DNA of 20,335 bases, from IMG/VR virus record IMGVR_UViG_3300042520_003000, positions 1 to 20,335 of that record; one strand, 5' to 3'. This DNA comes from a virus. Made by a program: the position numbers and the translations under genes. The notes under the pieces are model-generated. The model saw only the letters and a program-made list of their open reading frames with translations, did no database searches and was not told the origin of the DNA. Of this stretch, positions 1,230 through 20,335 are shown in pieces. Within the stretch, counting starts at the first letter, position 1, and each line of letters starts with the position of its first letter.

Positions 1230-1252
1230 ATTTGTTGAGTATAATAATTAAT

Positions 1253-2500
1253 ATGGCCATTCGAGGACACAATATCGCTATTTTTGACCTTGACGATACG
1301 TTAGTAGTAACTAATGCTCGGATCGAGGTCACTGACTCGTGGTCTGGCGAAAAATTTTACCTGTCGCCAAAGGAATTCAATGAATATGAAAGAAAGGCCA
1401 ATCACGCGATTGACTTTTCACAATTTGATGATCCTGATATTTTACGAGCGGGCACAATCGTTGAGTGGACTCTTGATATTATGAAAGAGGTCTATGCAAA
1501 AGAGGGCGCAGTCGGCATTATCACTGCACGTGGCGATGCCCAGCTAGTCAGAGAATTTATGTTAAGTCACGGAGTAGATATACATCCAGATCTAGTTTTT
1601 GCAGTAAATGAACCTGGCACTGAATTTACAGGCAATAATGCGGAAAAGAAGCAGCAGGCCTTTAAAAAATTGATTGAGAAAGGCTATTCGCAATTTATTT
1701 TCTTTGACGACGACATAAATAATCTAAAGCACGCAAAACTGCTTGAGAAGCAATATCCTATTAAAATTAGGACTGAGCATATCAAGCCAGACCAGTTGCC
1801 AGAGATTACAATGAAGAAGATCGGAATTTTCACAGGTAAATTTAAGCCACCTCACAAGGGTCACTATGAGATCATTAAGCAGGCACTAGCGGACAATGAT
1901 CAAGTTAGAATCTACGTATCTGACAAGCCAGAAGGAGGTATTGACGCAGATATTGCGATTAAGATTCTAAAGAAGTACTTGGGCAAAGAGCCTAATGTCA
2001 TAATCGAAAAAACTAGCATTTCACCAGTTCGTAGCGCGTATCGATTCATTTATGCACTTGGAGAAACACCTGATGCACCGAACCATGCAATTACGCTGTA
2101 TGCTGCACCAGATGATATGTCTAGATTCGATAAAGTACACCAATATTCCGGTAAGATCAAAAACGTCAAAAAGGTTAATACTGGCCGAGCGAAATTTAGT
2201 GATGGCAAAAAGGATCTATACGGTAAGGATTTGCGACGATTTTTAAAGATTGATGATTTTGAGTCGTTCAAACAGGGCATCCCAGATCAAGTTAACCCAA
2301 AGGCCATTTGGAAAATGCTTAAAACAAATGAAACTGGCGAGTACACTGTGCCAGCCAGTGCATTTACCCTAAACAAAAAGGTCTCTAGGCAAGATATTAA
2401 TCCAGTGCCAACTCAACGCCTGGTTCAACATCCAACGTATAGAGATGGATTTATGAATGAGAGTAAGGTCTTACGATTTAAGGACTTTACTAAAGAATAA
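1253..2500 (+). CDS. HAD phosphatase fused to HxGH nucleotidyltransferase
   Basis: A 415-residue, two-domain enzyme. Residues 8-160 form a HAD-type phosphatase: catalytic DLDDT at 12-16, motif II threonine in ITAR (90-93), and acidic motif FFDDD at 150-154. Residues 188 to about 340 form a cytidylyltransferase/NMNAT-like domain with GKFKPPHKGH at 195-204 and TSISPVRSAYR as a likely second nucleotide-binding motif. Such domains transfer NMP to or from phosphorylated substrates; the substrate here cannot be told. NAD or RNA-end metabolism would fit the other repair-like genes at the right end of the window. The last 15 residues, MNESKVLRFKDFTKE, repeat the peptide found inside the preceding gene. 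I chose the ATG at 1253 over the TTG at 1232 because the HAD motif follows it directly and its context is AT-rich like the other starts. Confidence 0.85.
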   Translation: MAIRGHNIAIFDLDDTLVVTNARIEVTDSWSGEKFYLSPKEFNEYERKANHAIDFSQFDDPDILRAGTIVEWTLDIMKEVYAKEGAVGIITARGDAQLVREFMLSHGVDIHPDLVFAVNEPGTEFTGNNAEKKQQAFKKLIEKGYSQFIFFDDDINNLKHAKLLEKQYPIKIRTEHIKPDQLPEITMKKIGIFTGKFKPPHKGHYEIIKQALADNDQVRIYVSDKPEGGIDADIAIKILKKYLGKEPNVIIEKTSISPVRSAYRFIYALGETPDAPNHAITLYAAPDDMSRFDKVHQYSGKIKNVKKVNTGRAKFSDGKKDLYGKDLRRFLKIDDFESFKQGIPDQVNPKAIWKMLKTNETGEYTVPASAFTLNKKVSRQDINPVPTQRLVQHPTYRDGFMNESKVLRFKDFTKE

Positions 2501-4791: not shown

Positions 4792-5529
4792 ATGACTCAA
4801 GCTGAATTAATAGCAGATATTCAAGAAGAACTGACCTTTTCCAAGGCATTACCGTATGTAATTCCAGAAAAGGAGATCGCGAGAATAATTAAGATCGCGG
4901 AGGGTTATTTTTATGATAACTGGCGCCATGCGGTTGAGCCAAGATATTTAGCTATTCCACAGGACGTTTTCAAAAACGATCGATTTAAAAAGGAAAGAGC
5001 AATCAGACTACCTGATTGTGTACAATTTGTGCATCAGTGTAGAGAGCCTAGAGGCGCTTCAATCTTTGGGTCAATTGACCGAGATTTTTCCGAAAATAAA
5101 TTTGTCGGTTCTGAGATCTTTTTAACACCGTTCATTGGTGAATCTATCATGTACAGAACAATCCTGTTCTCTTTCTTGGATTTAACTAAGGGCTTTGTAC
5201 TAGATACTTTTGCCTATAATTATAATCGTAATACTCGCGATTTAATCATCATGGGCCGCAGCCCGATCGCTAACGGTATGGTATTAGAAGTAGCTAAGAA
5301 GATTGAACTGGAAGATTTATACAATGATGAACTTTTCCAGAGATACGTTAGAGCAAAAGCAAAACTTAGACTCGGAGAACTCTTAACTAGCTTTGATTAC
5401 AACCTACCTGGTGGAGTTAAGGTAAATTATACAAATCTGGTAACTCGTGCAGAGAATGAATTAACTCAAGTTATGGAAATGATGAAGGGCGAGAACACAG
5501 CAGATTGGATGTTCCTAATAAGACAATAA
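4792..5529 (+). CDS. probable virion structural protein (neck/tail type, unassigned)
   Basis: A 245-residue protein. It starts with a helical segment (TQAELIADIQEELTFSKALPYVIPEKEIARIIKIAEGYFYDNW) typical of neck or head-tail connector proteins in T4-like phages, where two helices precede a beta-rich body. Recognisable pieces are EKEIARII and a mid-region full of Phe/Tyr strands. I cannot assign it to gp13, gp14 or another named protein. It is 4 bases ahead of the gp25-like gene, which supports a role in the virion. No signal peptide or membrane segment is seen. Confidence 0.6.
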   Translation: MTQAELIADIQEELTFSKALPYVIPEKEIARIIKIAEGYFYDNWRHAVEPRYLAIPQDVFKNDRFKKERAIRLPDCVQFVHQCREPRGASIFGSIDRDFSENKFVGSEIFLTPFIGESIMYRTILFSFLDLTKGFVLDTFAYNYNRNTRDLIIMGRSPIANGMVLEVAKKIELEDLYNDELFQRYVRAKAKLRLGELLTSFDYNLPGGVKVNYTNLVTRAENELTQVMEMMKGENTADWMFLIRQ

Positions 5530-6442: not shown

Positions 6443-8125
6443 TTATAGGGAACCTGGTTCGCCGACTTCTTTTGAAGTTTCGCCAGTCGGTGGAGTCTCA
6501 GCTGCTGGTGCGGCTGGTGCTCCGGCTGGAGGCGGTGGTACTGCACCAGCATCTGCACTAACTTCTAGAGCTTTACCATATGCAGCTAAATAGTCACGGT
6601 TCTTATCAATATCCTCATCACTCATTTTAAGGTATTCCTTAATTAAGTATTCAGTTGAGAAGTAAGGTTGACCGCTGTCGTCGACTACTGCTTTAAGAGC
6701 ATTAAGAGTAGCAAGGCGCTTGTTAAGCAGATCCTGTTGTTTGATTTCTTCAAATACGTTGTCATCATAGAATTGTAGACCTATTGCATTTGAGAATTTA
6801 GGATCGTCTTTTAACTCTTTAAAATCCAGACACATTTGGATATAAAGAGGCTTTGTGATTAGCTCCTTAAAGGCTGAACGTAGTCTAGAGATAAATTTAT
6901 TGTAACGAATTTCTTCACGAGAAATTCCTTCAGAATTCATGGTGTATGTTCCCATGCCGTCGCCAAAACGAGATTCTGGAATTTTTGAATCAAGCTTTAA
7001 CTTATCATGGAAATACTTTAATAACTCTGAACCTGATAGATTTGGACCGGCGTATTCTAGTGGCTCAATTTTAATCTGTTCATTACGATCATTAACTGGT
7101 AAAACATAGTTCTTATAGAAAAGAATGTTAGGCTTACCGTCAACTTTTAATTCGCCAGATTCTCCATCAAACGAAATATCTTCTTTTAGAGTATTTGTAA
7201 ATTCGCGAATGTCTTCCTTGGCCTTTTGCATTGACTTTGTACCAACTGGAACAGTTGTTGTCAAGCGAATTGGCGCATTCATTGTATGCCAAATAACTTT
7301 AGAATGTTCTATGATTCTAAGTAGATTAAACGAGCGAACCATTCTCTCAACGAAGGATACTCGTTTGGTTCTAAACTGGTTTGAATAGGAAATGTAAATT
7401 ACTTGAGAATCAGTCAGAGTTCTAATCTTTGCACCCTTTGGATCTTTTTGGGCCCATTCAAGATAGATTTTACCAGCAAAGTCTTTTTTAACTTGTGGAA
7501 ATAGGGTTGCTGGATCAAGTTCTTTAAAACCAATGATGTTTTTAGGATTCATTGGATCGTCATAGATGATTTCAAACGCAAGATGGCCTTCAATCAACCA
7601 CTGATAGAAATATTGCCAAGCTGCGATACCTGTGCCGAATCCCCAAGAGGAATAGATCTTTTGGAAATTTTCTTGATAACGCTGAACAATTTTTTCTTGA
7701 TACTGTAAACGTGCTTCTTTGCTACGACCCTTATACCGAATTTCTCCGATTAGGTCATTTGGATAACAGAAACGATTATCGTCATCATAAACGATTGCAT
7801 CATCAGTTATTGTTTCAAGAATAAATTCAATTTCACCGTTTGATGCAATATCACGAAGTCGTTCTCTCTTTGAGACGTAATCTAATTGAAAGAATGCGAT
7901 TGATTTGGATCTTAGACTTGAAGTTGTGTCTGATAAAGCAAGAGTAGCCTTCATCAAATCGTCTCCAAGCAGTCCGCCCTGCATGCCACTCAATTGACCT
8001 TCAATAAAGCCGATCGCTTGTGAATTTTTGACCAAAAGGTCGTCGTATTTCATTCCAAATCGGCTCAGGTCAGTTAGTCTTGATCTGATACCGCTAAGTG
8101 GATTACTATCTAAAAAGCCTGCCAT
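6443..8125 (-). CDS. 20: portal vertex protein, gp20-like
   Basis: A 560-residue protein matching the T4-like portal (T4 gp20 is 524). Family-typical segments in order are FFQLDYVSKRERLRDIASNG near residue 80, the acidic ITDDAIVYDD, the gp20 core WLIEGHLAFEIIYDD, RMVRSFNLLRIIEHSKVIW with the conserved portal helix, and PESRFGDGMGTYTMNSEGISR, a signature near the clip/crown region. Portals form the dodecameric ring through which DNA is packaged and ejected and nucleate head assembly. The C-terminal 40 residues are Pro/Ala/Gly-rich (VPPPPAGAPAAPAAETPPTG), an extension beyond the usual end. Last gene of the minus-strand operon, 9 bases after the upstream unknown gene. The start fits the AT-rich context. 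Confidence 0.93.
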   Translation of the reverse strand: MAGFLDSNPLSGIRSRLTDLSRFGMKYDDLLVKNSQAIGFIEGQLSGMQGGLLGDDLMKATLALSDTTSSLRSKSIAFFQLDYVSKRERLRDIASNGEIEFILETITDDAIVYDDDNRFCYPNDLIGEIRYKGRSKEARLQYQEKIVQRYQENFQKIYSSWGFGTGIAAWQYFYQWLIEGHLAFEIIYDDPMNPKNIIGFKELDPATLFPQVKKDFAGKIYLEWAQKDPKGAKIRTLTDSQVIYISYSNQFRTKRVSFVERMVRSFNLLRIIEHSKVIWHTMNAPIRLTTTVPVGTKSMQKAKEDIREFTNTLKEDISFDGESGELKVDGKPNILFYKNYVLPVNDRNEQIKIEPLEYAGPNLSGSELLKYFHDKLKLDSKIPESRFGDGMGTYTMNSEGISREEIRYNKFISRLRSAFKELITKPLYIQMCLDFKELKDDPKFSNAIGLQFYDDNVFEEIKQQDLLNKRLATLNALKAVVDDSGQPYFSTEYLIKEYLKMSDEDIDKNRDYLAAYGKALEVSADAGAVPPPPAGAPAAPAAETPPTGETSKEVGEPGSL

Positions 8126-8134
8126 TTATGGGCG

Positions 8135-8782
8135 TTATTTTCCAAATTCTGATAGAAGGACGGCAACTGGAGTCTTAACTGAGATGGTCGGATCGTTTCG
8201 ATAATCAATTTGTTCGATTTTTGAAACATCTTCCCAATCAATTAGAGCTATGTTTGCCATATTCTCTCTTTGATATTTATTTAGCGCAAAGCTCAAGTTA
8301 ATTCCAGTGAGCTTTGACATGAATGCCGGATTGACTGTTAAGAATGGGCCGATTAATCGATCAGCTAGCCTACTCTCAAATGGCATCAATTTATCTGACT
8401 CGTCATAGAATAGCTTAAGCCTTTCCCTAACTGCTCCCAAGTAGCGTCTGATTATAACTGATCTCAACTTTGGTGGAATCATTTTAAGATTTAGGATGAT
8501 TTCTCCATCCTGGCCACCAAGACTTAAGCAAACTGGCGCATTATCATAATATGGTCGTTTAATTGGGTACTGCTTTAGATCATTTTGGCTCATCGTTTCA
8601 GATAAGTTTGGGACAACATCATTTGGTAATGCATTTACCACGTTAAATGAATAGAAATGACCTGGAATTAATCTAAATCTTGAGTATGCGATTCCTTCTT
8701 GCTGAAAATAATAATTAGCATAGTTTGACGTCTCAGCAACAATGCCGTCAGTAATATACGAATCTAAGTCAATGTATGCCAT
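8135..8782 (-). CDS. unknown T4-like structural or packaging protein between gp4 and portal
   Basis: A 215-residue protein with no confident family name. Residues about 36-125 contain the order GHFYSFNV ... PYYDNAPVCLSLGG ... ILNLKMIPPKLRSVI. I have seen this layout (Tyr-Phe segment, PYYD, then PP.LR) in proteins of other T4-like phages, possibly ones annotated as DNA-end protection or structural proteins. In T4 the gene next to gp4 encodes gp2 (end protector) on one side and gp53 on the other, so either context is possible, and length does not decide. It lies between gp4 and the portal with small gaps (9 bases each), arguing for a head or packaging role. Confidence 0.5.
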   Translation of the reverse strand: MAYIDLDSYITDGIVAETSNYANYYFQQEGIAYSRFRLIPGHFYSFNVVNALPNDVVPNLSETMSQNDLKQYPIKRPYYDNAPVCLSLGGQDGEIILNLKMIPPKLRSVIIRRYLGAVRERLKLFYDESDKLMPFESRLADRLIGPFLTVNPAFMSKLTGINLSFALNKYQRENMANIALIDWEDVSKIEQIDYRNDPTISVKTPVAVLLSEFGK

Positions 8783-12765: not shown

Positions 12766-13170
12766 ATGAATACTGAGATGGACTCATTCATAAAATACCT
12801 CTATTCAGTAGAGGAATCTTGTGAAACACTAACCGCTGACCAATTTCAAAAATTGTGTTTAATTCAAACAAAGGTAACTGAATTGGTCGATAAGGTCAAC
12901 ACAGTATTCAATCCACCCGCTCAAACCCAGGCTGTCGAAACTCCAGTTGTCGTGCAGCAATTAGAACCAGCTGTCATACAGGAAAAAAACGTTATAGGAT
13001 TTCAGGAATTTATAACGGAAAAGATCGCAAAGCGGGGTAAAAATTGGGTCGTATTAGATTCAAAAGGTAAAGAAGTATTGGGAACTCACCCATCTAAAGA
13101 GAAAGCAGTTAAGCAATTACAGGCAATTGAAATTTCAAAAATGAAAGCAAAAGGCACCTGGAAAAAATGA
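12766..13170 (+). CDS. small protein with internal FQEFITE peptide and basic C-terminal domain
   Basis: A 134-residue protein. Residues 1-50 are an acidic helix, then a Pro/Val/Gln-rich linker (50-72). Residues 76-85, VIGFQEFITE, match the F..FI.E capsid-targeting form of T4 IPIII (YQEFIAE), with possible cleavage after E85 (ITE|K). The remainder, 49 residues, has 14 Lys/Arg against 4 Asp/Glu, so a net charge of about +10, and contains GKNWVVLDSKGKEVLGTHPSKEKAVKQLQAIE. Such short Lys-rich cargo would fit a DNA-binding internal protein. Its TGA overlaps the ATG of the next gene (ATGA at 13167-13170). Confidence 0.7.
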   Translation: MNTEMDSFIKYLYSVEESCETLTADQFQKLCLIQTKVTELVDKVNTVFNPPAQTQAVETPVVVQQLEPAVIQEKNVIGFQEFITEKIAKRGKNWVVLDSKGKEVLGTHPSKEKAVKQLQAIEISKMKAKGTWKK

Positions 13171-16818: not shown

Positions 16819-17346
16819 ATGGCAAAACTACAAATTTTTGATTTTGATGAAACTCTATTTAGAGTACCAGGCTATGTCTGCAAAGAAGCAGCCGGTTTAA
16901 CTCCATACGAGTGGTTTGATTCGCCAAAATCTCTAGATTCATCTTTTAACATTAGAGGAATTGAGAGTGTTATTTCCAGAACTCGGGACAAGTCATCAAT
17001 GAATGTTTTAATAACGCATAGAGTTGTTGAAACTAGAGATGCGGTAATTGATGTACTCAGTACGCAAAACGTTAGATTCGATAAACTTTACTTTTTAGGC
17101 CGTGAAGGTAAAAAGGTCGATAAAGTGATTGAATTGCTCAGAGCAGATGATGAAATTGACCAGCTCGTTATCTATGAAGATTCACTTTATCAAATAATTG
17201 AGTATACTAGCGGATTACGTGATTATGGTTTTGACGGAAACGTTAATTTTGTATTCGTTGATAAAAACAAGTTAATTGAGTTTGACATGGCAACTGCTAG
17301 AGAACTCGAAGATTATTCAAATATTACTAGATTAAACATTATATGA
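16819..17346 (+). CDS. HAD-like phosphatase of the RNA-repair (SAK) type
   Basis: A 175-residue HAD-family protein. The catalytic loop is IFDFDETLF (residues 6-14, with D8 and D10). TPYEWFDSPKSLD follows as in the Swiss-Army-Knife RNA-repair HAD family (PF10307), where Trp and a proline-rich cap follow the catalytic loop. The second motif is LITHR, and LVIYEDSL is the likely acidic motif III. Proteins of this family remove phosphates from RNA ends or nucleotides; that role here is inference from sequence type and from the neighbouring kinase and ligase. The stop overlaps the kinase start (ATGA at 17343). Confidence 0.75.
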   Translation: MAKLQIFDFDETLFRVPGYVCKEAAGLTPYEWFDSPKSLDSSFNIRGIESVISRTRDKSSMNVLITHRVVETRDAVIDVLSTQNVRFDKLYFLGREGKKVDKVIELLRADDEIDQLVIYEDSLYQIIEYTSGLRDYGFDGNVNFVFVDKNKLIEFDMATARELEDYSNITRLNII

Positions 17347-17945
17347 TTCTATTTGTAGAAGGACCAAGACACAGCGGTAAAACGTATTTGATTGAGCAAT
17401 TCATTGCACAGTGTAATGATCCGAGAATAGAATACTATAAGTTCTATTTTGCAAATCACCTAAAAACTCTGCACCTTGAGTGGCAAGAAGATCAACCTGG
17501 ACTGCACTATTTTAGCCTAGGCAATATCATGACCATTCTTGAAATGAATCAGCGCGAAGCTTATCGAGATAAAATTTGGATCTTTGATCGAGCTATTATC
17601 TCAGCATACGCTTGGGCAATTCTACGTGGAAGATTATCTCATATTAAAGCCTATAGTGAAATCCGTAGAGTTTTTGGATTGGACCTATATCAAAACTGTA
17701 AAACCATCTTTGTATCAGCTGATGGCAATACGTTAGACTCAACTAGGCAAAAAGATCATTGGGATGGAGCCGTTAAAACTGGCGATGAAACTCACTTGAT
17801 GCTGGACCTAATTCAGTCTAACATATATGACATTGCTGACATAAACAAAGGCAATGGTTTCTACTCAATAAAAAATGAATTCGACCAAGTCGCGATCAAT
17901 CACTTTATAGAATCTTGTAATTCCGCACTTGGTTTGAATAAATAA
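17343..17945 (+). CDS. P-loop kinase, possible nucleotide or nucleic-acid 5' kinase
   Basis: A 200-residue protein with Walker A GPRHSGKT (residues 7-14) and a Walker B/lid-type IWIFDRAIISAYAW near residue 80. The order resembles thymidylate-kinase and polynucleotide-kinase folds; DRAIIS is like the DR(Y/W)..S segment of nucleotide kinases. Phosphate acceptor cannot be told. Lying between a HAD phosphatase (four-base overlap) and a ligase-like gene (6-base gap), a 5'-end kinase for broken RNA is plausible, as in T4 Pnkp, but a dNMP kinase is an equally good reading of the fold. Confidence 0.72.
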   Translation: MILFVEGPRHSGKTYLIEQFIAQCNDPRIEYYKFYFANHLKTLHLEWQEDQPGLHYFSLGNIMTILEMNQREAYRDKIWIFDRAIISAYAWAILRGRLSHIKAYSEIRRVFGLDLYQNCKTIFVSADGNTLDSTRQKDHWDGAVKTGDETHLMLDLIQSNIYDIADINKGNGFYSIKNEFDQVAINHFIESCNSALGLNK

Positions 17946-17951
17946 CCAAGT

Positions 17952-19760
17952 ATGGCAGGATTATCACATATTAAAGATCTGTATCAGAAGAAAGGTAAGG
18001 AGTTCGTTTCCGATCTCCTAAACAAGCACGTCATCATTAACGAAAAGATGGACGGTGCATTCTTTGGCATTAGAAAGAACTGCGAAAGCGGCGAAATCGA
18101 GTTTTACAAAAAGGGCGGCAAACTATCATATGTTGATAGAGTCTTAAGCCGTTATTACGAGCCTGCAATCCAGCACATTAATCAACTTGGTCAAATTGAC
18201 TTGCCATGCGACCATTATTTTGGATTTGAGTATTTCGTTAATAAAAACTCACAAAAGGTTGAATACGATAGACTGCCTCAAAATAACTTGATTTTAAGTT
18301 ACATTCATATTTTGGGCGAGAATGGCGAGCCAACTCAAACAATACAAGACGGTAAAAGTCTAAATGCTTGGGCCGACAAACTGCAAGTCGAAAGACCACC
18401 GATCGTCTTTGAAGGTAAACTTACTGACGAGCAAAAGGTTCAAATAATGGAATTCGTCTATACTCCGATTGAAGAGTTATTGGAGAAATTCAAAACAACA
18501 TCATTTACCAAGTATATCCTATCAGTATTCAATCCGGAGTTAAAGGCTAGCTTTTTAAACGATGATATGGATAAGTCTATTGAGGGCCTAGTCTTTAGGT
18601 TCTATGAGCCTGAATCAACTGGCGAAGAGTCAGTGTTCTTGGCAAAATTAATTGATCCATGGTTTCAGCAGAGTGCAATAGATCGTGCCGAAAATCAAAG
18701 AGCTGAAGCGAAAAAGAGTGATGATTATATTTGGATTACAGTTATCGACTTAATGAATTACATCGAACGATTCAATAATGCTGAACTTCGAAACTTACCA
18801 GCTGATGGCGAAACGTCTGATGAAAGATATGTTAGCCTGGTAAATTCAATTTACAAGGGATTTGTACAGGAATTTGGTGATAAGTACTCAGAACTTGATA
18901 TTAAAATTCCAGAATACTTAACTAAAGACGAATTCAATGTTAACTTTGATTTGATTAGAGATCCTGAAGTAATAGATTTAATTGAGTCAAATCCAAACTA
19001 CAAAGAGATTTATCGAATTCTTTTAAATGTCTTTAGAAAAAAGAATATTCGAATCGGTGCTAGTTTCTTTACTCAGCCGATGAAGCAGATTCTGCATTCG
19101 CAGATTAACAAAATCATGAATATCGTGAACGAAGACAAACTGTTTGAAAACTACTTTCCAACATTTAGTGAATTTGTTGGAACACCTGAAGAGCCAGGTT
19201 ATTTTGATACTTTTGCTGAAGTCCCAGCCGACAAGCGTCAATCCAAGCAAGTTAACCTAGTCATTTCAGAATTTCAGCCAATAACTAACTCTCACGATAG
19301 AATCATTGAAAAATTGTGGACTGAGTCTAATACACCAACTGTCTTAATTGCAGTACATCCAGGTGCAAAGTCTAAGAGATTTCCAATTTCAAATGAAACA
19401 GTTAATTCGACTCTTAAGAAATATGCCGCTGCTAACCCAGAAAAGATTGCGGGAATTTTTGTAATTAATGAAGCAAATATCGGTCGAATGCTATCAGTAA
19501 TTAAGCCTGATTTCGAGCCAGTTTCAATCGTTGCAGAAAAAGGTAGACTTGCAGATTTGGCATTACAACTTGAACACGCCAAAAAGAGATCTCGAGATCT
19601 TAACTTAAAGAGAAATTTGTTGCTAATGGAGATTCCATATTCGCCGAGCGCAAATGAAGCAATTTCTGCAATTCGTGCACAGGATTTCTCAGCGTACAGA
19701 ACGTTAGTTCCGCGCTCACTACATTCAGAATTCTTTACTTACAATCGAGACTTAAGTTAA
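17952..19760 (+). CDS. ligase-type nucleotidyltransferase fused to a C-terminal HIGH-like nucleotidylyltransferase
   Basis: A 602-residue fusion. The N-terminal 240 residues have the ligase superfamily motifs: EKMDG (31-35, adenylated lysine K32), FGFEYF (90-95, motif III), EGLVFRF (211-217, motif IV) and LAKLID (230-235, motif V, K232). This resembles the Rnl2-type RNA ligase core. A helical linker (about 240-430) leads to a second domain with FQPITNSHDR (441-450), a variant of the HxGH nucleotide-binding motif, and IAVHPGAKSKRFPIS downstream. The first histidine-like position is Thr and the Gly position is Ser, so activity of this domain is uncertain. Overlaps the convergent phosphoesterase by nine bases. 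Confidence 0.8.
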   Translation: MAGLSHIKDLYQKKGKEFVSDLLNKHVIINEKMDGAFFGIRKNCESGEIEFYKKGGKLSYVDRVLSRYYEPAIQHINQLGQIDLPCDHYFGFEYFVNKNSQKVEYDRLPQNNLILSYIHILGENGEPTQTIQDGKSLNAWADKLQVERPPIVFEGKLTDEQKVQIMEFVYTPIEELLEKFKTTSFTKYILSVFNPELKASFLNDDMDKSIEGLVFRFYEPESTGEESVFLAKLIDPWFQQSAIDRAENQRAEAKKSDDYIWITVIDLMNYIERFNNAELRNLPADGETSDERYVSLVNSIYKGFVQEFGDKYSELDIKIPEYLTKDEFNVNFDLIRDPEVIDLIESNPNYKEIYRILLNVFRKKNIRIGASFFTQPMKQILHSQINKIMNIVNEDKLFENYFPTFSEFVGTPEEPGYFDTFAEVPADKRQSKQVNLVISEFQPITNSHDRIIEKLWTESNTPTVLIAVHPGAKSKRFPISNETVNSTLKKYAAANPEKIAGIFVINEANIGRMLSVIKPDFEPVSIVAEKGRLADLALQLEHAKKRSRDLNLKRNLLLMEIPYSPSANEAISAIRAQDFSAYRTLVPRSLHSEFFTYNRDLS

Positions 19761-20335
19761 GGTTGTAAAATCTCCCTCAATAAAACAAATGTGTTGAGCC
19801 TTACCGTCATTGTGGATAAGGACATGGCTCTGTAGCCAACTGCTTGGGCCAACATTGTAATTAACTCGAAGCTTGGTACTTGTACCAACTGATAGGGCTC
19901 CATCTTTACGGCCTGGAGAGTGATAATGGCCGACTACCATTTTGCGATTTAATTTTCTAAATTGCAATAGCGAGCCACGAGAACCGTTTGAGCCGACATC
20001 GCCATGTAGACCAAGTTCCCAGTCATTGACAATAAACGAATCGCTTCGACCTAGAGTATTAAATGTTGGAAACTTCTGTTTGATTAAGTGGGGAATAATT
20101 CCTTGTGGGGCTTCGCCTTTAAGCAATAGTGCAGCAAACTCCATATATTCAATTGAATTTCTAAGAGTTGAAGCCTTTCGCCAATCAGTGTTCTTTAACC
20201 ATCTATCTAAAAAGTCATCATGGTTACTGCGGACAACTGTGACATTATAGTCTTTAAAGTCTTCAAGACCTATCAGCATTGCGTCAATCTCATGACGTAG
20301 CGAGTTACTACCATCCATTTCTCGTTGGAATTGAA
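19752..20335 (-). CDS. calcineurin-like metallophosphoesterase, C-terminal part (5' end outside window)
   Basis: The reading frame is open to the right edge, so the first ATG seen (20318) is probably internal. Three of the usual metal motifs are visible: VVRSNHDDFLD (GNHD-like), LHGDVGSNG (histidine motif) and VVGHYHSP (GHxHxP-like, metal-binding). The first motif (DxH) and the second (GDxxD) would lie before the window end. Such enzymes hydrolyse phosphodiesters or phosphomonoesters of nucleotides or RNA. It meets the ligase gene tail to tail with a nine-base overlap. Together with the kinase and ligase it recalls the kinase-phosphatase-ligase modules of bacterial Pnkp. Confidence 0.8.
   Translation of the reverse strand, partial: QFQREMDGSNSLRHEIDAMLIGLEDFKDYNVTVVRSNHDDFLDRWLKNTDWRKASTLRNSIEYMEFAALLLKGEAPQGIIPHLIKQKFPTFNTLGRSDSFIVNDWELGLHGDVGSNGSRGSLLQFRKLNRKMVVGHYHSPGRKDGALSVGTSTKLRVNYNVGPSSWLQSHVLIHNDGKAQHICFIEGDFTTLT

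Follow-up and report, generated by a model that had tools for sequence, protein, structure and literature searches.

A conserved HAD phosphatase–kinase–ligase gene trio of huge phages as a candidate system for healing and sealing nucleic acid ends

What do a HAD-superfamily phosphatase, a P-loop kinase and a ligase do side by side in a phage genome? The question is raised by the IMG/VR virus record IMGVR_UViG_3300042520_003000, which was analyzed as a whole (20,335 bases, hereafter the window); it stands alone as a record and is a fragment of a larger genome. A preliminary description had assigned to four adjacent genes of the window the role of an RNA-repair island, and an open reading frame check confirmed that all four reading frames are present. 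We find that three of them, the HAD, kinase and ligase genes, form an operon-like unit on one strand. The function that fits this trio best, although not decisively, is the healing and sealing of nucleic acid ends; we regard it as possible, if somewhat short of probable, the activities of the three proteins, their cooperation and their substrate being what we infer.

The HAD, kinase and ligase genes form a conserved unit

The HAD gene (16819..17346, + strand, 175 amino acids), the kinase gene (17343..17945, + strand, 200 amino acids) and the gene for the ligase fusion protein (17952..19760, + strand, 602 amino acids) follow one another directly. Overlaps between them had been taken to imply the co-expression of all three. 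The HAD and kinase genes do share 4 bases (ATGA), but the kinase stop lies at 17945 and the ligase start at 17952, leaving a 6-base gap and no overlap. Co-transcription of the three genes is plausible, with one overlap only among them.

Scans with kinase and HAD alignments yielded 41 contigs, by a hand count over both lists. The HAD–kinase–ligase order and the common strand are kept without exception in the 38 other contigs of sufficient length, keeping in mind that IMG/VR contigs may be fragments. Several of the contigs are near-identical, and 26 distinct ligase proteins are left, the window's counted. The comparison of gene neighbourhoods that had been proposed as a check of the island thus came out positive for the trio, whose order and strand are conserved well beyond chance. 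Some lineages carry an additional gene of ~140–210 amino acids between the kinase and the ligase, and upstream of the trio, in reverse orientation, the relatives share two small genes and UvsW. The trio is also under purifying selection: relative to contig L001, pN/pS is 0.16 for the HAD, 0.20 for the kinase and 0.13 for the ligase (range 0.13–0.20), and 0.20 for the NMNAT-like tail of the fusion alone, all rough values with synonymous sites near saturation. A protein search with the window ligase protein gave three closer IMG/VR contigs (84–73%) and also matched large uncultured phages, at 22–26% in records of 635–735 kb and at 31% in a record of 462 kb.

The ligase domain of the fusion resembles T4 Rnl2

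Single-sequence PDB searches with the HAD, kinase and ligase proteins gave no useful match. In the fusion, residues 26–232 match PF09414 (RNA_ligase) at 27.2 bits for a cut-off of 27, and across the family PF09414 is matched by 17 of 28 members (best E-value 6.3e-10) and CTP_transf_like by 23 of 28. An AlphaFold model of the fusion (pLDDT 80.6, pTM 0.56) comprises a ligase nucleotidyltransferase domain (residues 1–235, 17952..18656, + strand), a helical middle domain (about residues 236–395, 18657..19136, + strand) and an NMNAT-like HIGH domain (residues 431–602, 19242..19757, + strand), in agreement with the earlier view of this protein as a ligase fusion. The top solved structure found by Foldseek for the N-terminal domain is T4 Rnl2 (2hvr, E-value 1.9e-7), which occupies ranks 1–3 and is followed by fungal tRNA ligase and trypanosome REL1. 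The N-terminus of the fusion is thus RNA-ligase-class and T4 Rnl2-like as modeled, a similarity that speaks to fold and not to function.

The signature residues of the T4 Rnl2 family are present as well, as judged from a column tally over 70 relatives: the nucleophilic lysine K32 in motif I (EKMDG, for KxDG), E93 in motif III, E211-G212 in motif IV and K232 in motif V. In the clade defined by the HAD–kinase pair, Lys32 is kept in 25 of 26 ligases and the motif V lysine in all 26. Unlike in T4 Rnl2, the second motif V lysine is Ile or Val and the motif Ia arginine is Lys; the fusion further differs by its helical C-terminal domain, its NMNAT-like part and its location in a replication block.

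The HAD protein has an affinity to RNA-repair phosphatases

The HAD protein carries the motif residues DFDET, T66, K99 and ED121, conserved in 19 clade members. HAD_SAK_1 matches 7 of these 19 HADs when E-values of 0.1 or better are counted (best 1.4e-9), and one relative (L159) passes the family cut-off with 33.6 bits against 25.6; the window protein stays below it (12.9 bits, E-value 0.09). These matches speak for the proposed RNA-repair affinity and suggest a relation of the HAD to the "Swiss-army-knife" (SAK) RNA-repair HADs. In three genomes carrying the trio (triad genomes), the neighbour of the ligase is the sole hit of the HAD profile, which has none in seven non-triad genomes. In the RNA-repair section of a study of jumbo phages, SAK-HADs are placed with RNA ligases as RNA-repair phosphatases, in sets that also comprise polynucleotide kinases (PNK), Rnl ligases and RlaP (PMC7824862). 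The window locus shares with these sets the association of a SAK-affinity HAD with an RNA-ligase-class protein. It differs in that the kinase is not PNK-type and in that the ligase is fused to an NMNAT-like domain, an arrangement that we did not find described in that section. RlaP (PF10127) was not found in the 13 genomes searched.

Taken as an end-healing and sealing system, the three proteins would be co-expressed and would jointly process broken nucleic acid. The HAD protein would remove the 3' phosphate, the kinase would add a phosphate to the 5' hydroxyl, and the Rnl2-like ligase would adenylate the 5' phosphate via Lys32 and seal the break. The NMNAT-like tail, its chemistry lost, would remain only as a fold or binding surface. 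As far as the sequence tells, the substrate may be RNA, DNA or a free nucleotide; the likely one would be RNA or RNA-containing nicks, in a setting linked to phage replication and not to the main tRNA-repair set of the phage.

The kinase belongs to a nucleoside and nucleotide kinase superfamily

The kinase shows the marks of the thymidylate kinase (TMK)/deoxynucleoside kinase (dNK) superfamily: its fold, an EGxxxxGKT P-loop (EGPRHSGKT), a DR-x3-S motif (within FDRAIISAY) and basic residues in the lid (RxKDxWD). Its invariant residues include EG...GKT, Y31-Y32-K33-F34, D82-R83, S87-A88-Y89, R135 and K137-D138. The best 50 structural matches of the model (pLDDT 88) are TMK, dNK and NadR, with TMKs filling the top 39; vaccinia thymidylate kinase reaches a Z-score of 15.7, and dCK and the NadR kinase 14.0. 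No polynucleotide kinase is among these 50, an absence that proves nothing. The kinase profile matches deoxynucleoside kinases only (e.g. 6ybh, E-value 0.0016), and its comparison with the AAA_33 kinase of a relative is weak (25% probability).

Several of our observations weigh against end healing and sealing, the family of the kinase being the main counterweight. The fold of the protein is that of nucleoside/nucleotide kinases, and it is not recognizable as a polynucleotide kinase, which does not support the end-healing role first given to it: no PNK family (PF13671, PHROG 415) matches the window kinase or is listed among the families of 21 clade members. Distant kinase homologues occur away from the ligase in six of the seven non-triad genomes, and in all four regions read their neighbour is an asparagine-synthase-like gene, with neither HAD nor ligase present. 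In the ligase, L155 has an arginine in place of the catalytic lysine, and two motifs vary in most of the clade, motif III between E and D and motif IV between EG, DE and SE. Finally, the relatives have dedicated RNA-repair genes near tRNAs elsewhere, tens of kb from the trio. Note that in larger phages (L178–L181), the kinase homologue is flanked by a ~830-amino-acid protein and an asparagine-synthase-like amidotransferase; the asparagine-synthase-like gene was not found in three triad genomes tested.

The kinase and the HAD could instead act on free nucleotides, e.g. as a deoxynucleoside monophosphate (dNMP) kinase and a 5'-nucleotidase serving the supply of DNA precursors, so that only the ligase-like protein would touch nucleic acid and the grouping would reflect co-expression with the replication block. 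Besides the structural and profile matches above and the homologues occurring without ligase or HAD, the invariant Lys33 and the lack of an invariant acid after strand 2 would suit an acceptor that is already phosphorylated; triad genomes contain no canonical thymidylate kinase above cut-off, and the 5-nucleotidase family PF06189 weakly matches 7 of the 19 HADs (best E-value 0.0024). We nevertheless consider this explanation rather doubtful: a kinase and a phosphatase sharing one nucleotide substrate would work against each other, and it leaves unexplained both the invariable adjacency to the ligase and the relation to HAD_SAK_1.

Should end healing and sealing by the trio, with its TMK/dNK-type kinase, be borne out, 5' ends would be phosphorylated here in a new way; otherwise, the locus would caution against labelling every kinase–ligase neighbourhood RNA repair.

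Bacterial Pnkp groups kinase, phosphatase and ligase functions, and the locus had been likened to a dispersed version of it. In Pnkp a single polypeptide combines kinase, metallophosphatase and ligase, while the window has three separate genes and a HAD phosphatase. Compared with CthPnkp, the proteins are separate, a HAD replaces the metallophosphatase, the kinase has a TMK/dNK fold and the ligase is Rnl2-like. The likeness is weakened rather than refuted, failing on the phosphatase and on the kinase family.

The trio lies in a replication block

In the window, the trio adjoins UvsW helicase, primase and DNA polymerase genes. Many fusion homologues in huge phages are similarly sited, in a block with primase-like, UvsW and DNA polymerase genes, between UvsW and dUTPase/DNA polymerase. 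One may thus ask whether the trio mends DNA or RNA–DNA nicks arising from phage replication or recombination, and not RNA cleaved by the host. Rnl2-type enzymes can seal RNA–DNA nicks, and tRNA repair has its own genes elsewhere in these phages. Such a role seems distinctly unlikely to us: the affinities of the ligase and the HAD point to RNA-repair families, and a separate canonical DNA ligase (PF01068) is present in 12 of the 13 genomes searched, including one in each of the six triad genomes (252–271 kb, four of them near-identical). Because all six have this separate enzyme, the fusion need not be the replicative DNA ligase, and we consider that candidate assignment unlikely.

The triad genomes also have 20–28 tRNA matches, other PF09414 ligases and an AAA_33 kinase. 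More specifically, an AAA_33 kinase and a T4-Rnl1-like ligase are the neighbours of 13 tRNAs in G005, where an OB-fold RNA ligase follows after about 3 kb; G001 has a CCA-enzyme-like gene next to an OB-fold RNA ligase, and a single tRNA lies about 1 kb downstream. The window, a fragment, contains no tRNA. A role of the trio in tRNA repair, as first proposed, is weakened though not refuted: the relatives' RNA ligases, AAA_33 kinase or CCA enzyme sit near tRNA genes and the trio in the replication block, and these other repair sets make such a role less needed.

Active sites have been lost repeatedly in the fusion family

The C-terminal part of the fusion matches NMNAT by fold (1hyb, Z-score 15.5), in line with the ligase-fusion description, but its nucleotidyltransferase (NTase) motifs are decayed. 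NMN adenylyltransferases of the HIGH NTase type have GRFxPxHxGH and ISSTxxR motifs; the window protein reads SEFQPITNSH where GRFQPxHxGH is expected, and it has no ISSTxxR and no arginine in the C-terminal motif. In all 26 proteins of the HAD–kinase clade, the arginine is lost from both the GRFxP and SxTxxR motifs; the glycine of HxGH is also lost in the window and its two nearest relatives. NAD+ salvage of the NadR type was considered, both folds being present, and set aside given this loss in 26/26. NadR combines NMNAT and ribosylnicotinamide kinase, and the locus shares with it the kinase fold (Z-score 14.0) and the NMNAT fold (Z-score 14.3), encoded side by side; unlike in NadR, two different proteins carry these folds, the NMNAT part has decayed motifs, and a ligase and a HAD are added.

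The fusion is common in huge phages, with at least 306 relatives in one alignment scan. Among 70 aligned relatives, the motif I lysine is replaced in 14 (by D, N, Q, M or R) on several branches, many have a decayed NTase or none, and four Mahaphage-size members keep neither active site. Six lysine-less members (Q, N or M) have complete NTase motifs; L013 is a lysine-less relative in which these motifs are intact. A strict either-or between the ligase lysine and the NTase motifs was rejected, all four combinations being present when SGTxVR variants are counted in. As judged from these alignments, both active sites of this widespread fusion have been lost repeatedly and independently, and the HAD–kinase pair accompanies the fusion only in the clade with the decayed NTase; we found no report of either. 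On a FastTree tree (support values not considered) this clade is one branch, a single event, and the joint occurrence of NTase decay and the HAD–kinase pair therefore carries no statistical weight. The folds are known ones, but neither the fusion nor the trio appears to have been described in the open-access literature searched, where our failure to find the ligase–NMNAT fusion is no proof of novelty.

These losses bear on two further explanations. The fusion might be mainly a non-catalytic nucleic-acid-binding or scaffold protein whose active sites are remnants in many lineages, as the substitutions just described would allow; the helical middle domain, 87.5% identical to that of L001 and 80.6% to that of L003, is also the best-kept and slowest-evolving part of the fusion with respect to L003. 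We consider this very unlikely, given the retention of Lys32 and of the motif V lysine in the window clade. Alternatively, the NMNAT-like domain of the wider family might be a second adenylating center, transferring AMP onto a 5'-phosphorylated polynucleotide, on the model of the AMP attachment to NMN by NMNAT, with the adenylated (App) end then sealed by the ligase domain; in the window clade, the NTase would have decayed, the lysine route would have been kept and the HAD–kinase pair recruited to prepare ends. Members without the catalytic lysine could then still ligate, and RNA ligase lysine mutants can retain the sealing step on pre-adenylated ends (PMC3514331). We regard this scheme as highly improbable. 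Whatever the role of the fusion, huge phages keep it in their replication block and differ in the active site that survives; its purpose can be approached through this natural series.

Two observations concern other members of the family. In a large sister clade, the gene at 5043–5987 of L070 and its homologues, located before the fusion in 39 loci, encode a Polbeta-type nucleotidyltransferase-like protein (GSIGKK...DLDLGY); its assignment as RlaP was dropped for want of a Pfam match. The protein encoded at 7674–10679 of L128 and other fusions of ~1000 amino acids continue into an additional C-terminal region, whose GEINIEVKG stretch, on reading the sequence, resembles a PD-(D/E)xK nuclease.

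The phosphoesterase gene lies outside the unit

The fourth gene of the proposed island (19752..20318, − strand) converges on the ligase gene and is cut by the end of the record, the C-terminal 188 amino acids of the metallophosphoesterase lying in the window. Complete homologues in L001 and L003 have ~530 amino acids, so that the N-terminal part falls outside the window. The fragment matches the C-terminal region of PHROG 1745, 'DNA transfer protein', to which T5 A1 belongs (E-value 3.7e-49, profile positions 349–540 of 542). Its opposite strand, its T5-A1-like nature and a strand and spacing that vary among relatives led us to reject it as a member; it is a neighbour, probably outside the operon, and the island shrinks to the three same-strand genes.

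Other proteins of the window and its relatives

A second HAD–NTase fusion is encoded at 1232–2500 (+ strand) of the window. Its HAD part matches PHROG 415 (E-value 1.9e-12) and is followed by an NTase with an intact GKFKPPHKGH motif and by a C-terminal MNESKVLRFKDFTKE tail; a similar protein is encoded at 2497–3915 of L177.

Many proteins carry a motif, e.g. MKFLKPFSTFINES, which we take to resemble the T4 capsid-targeting sequence. In the window it occurs at 13167 (N-terminus) and at 12766, 494 and 1232 (internal or C-terminal), and in relatives at L004 8704 and 11943, L116 6621, L128 7099 and others. The protein at 8704–9966 of L004, encoded directly before a lysine-less fusion, is a second ligase-like protein (SEKLDG in motif I) with such an N-terminus; neither Pfam nor PHROG gave it a convincing match. 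Of 341 genes, 28 have the pattern [FY]..[FY]x.E in their first 20 amino acids, compared to 1.6% of internal 20-amino-acid stretches. These motifs suggest that many proteins, the second ligase-like protein of L004 among them, may be packaged in the head.

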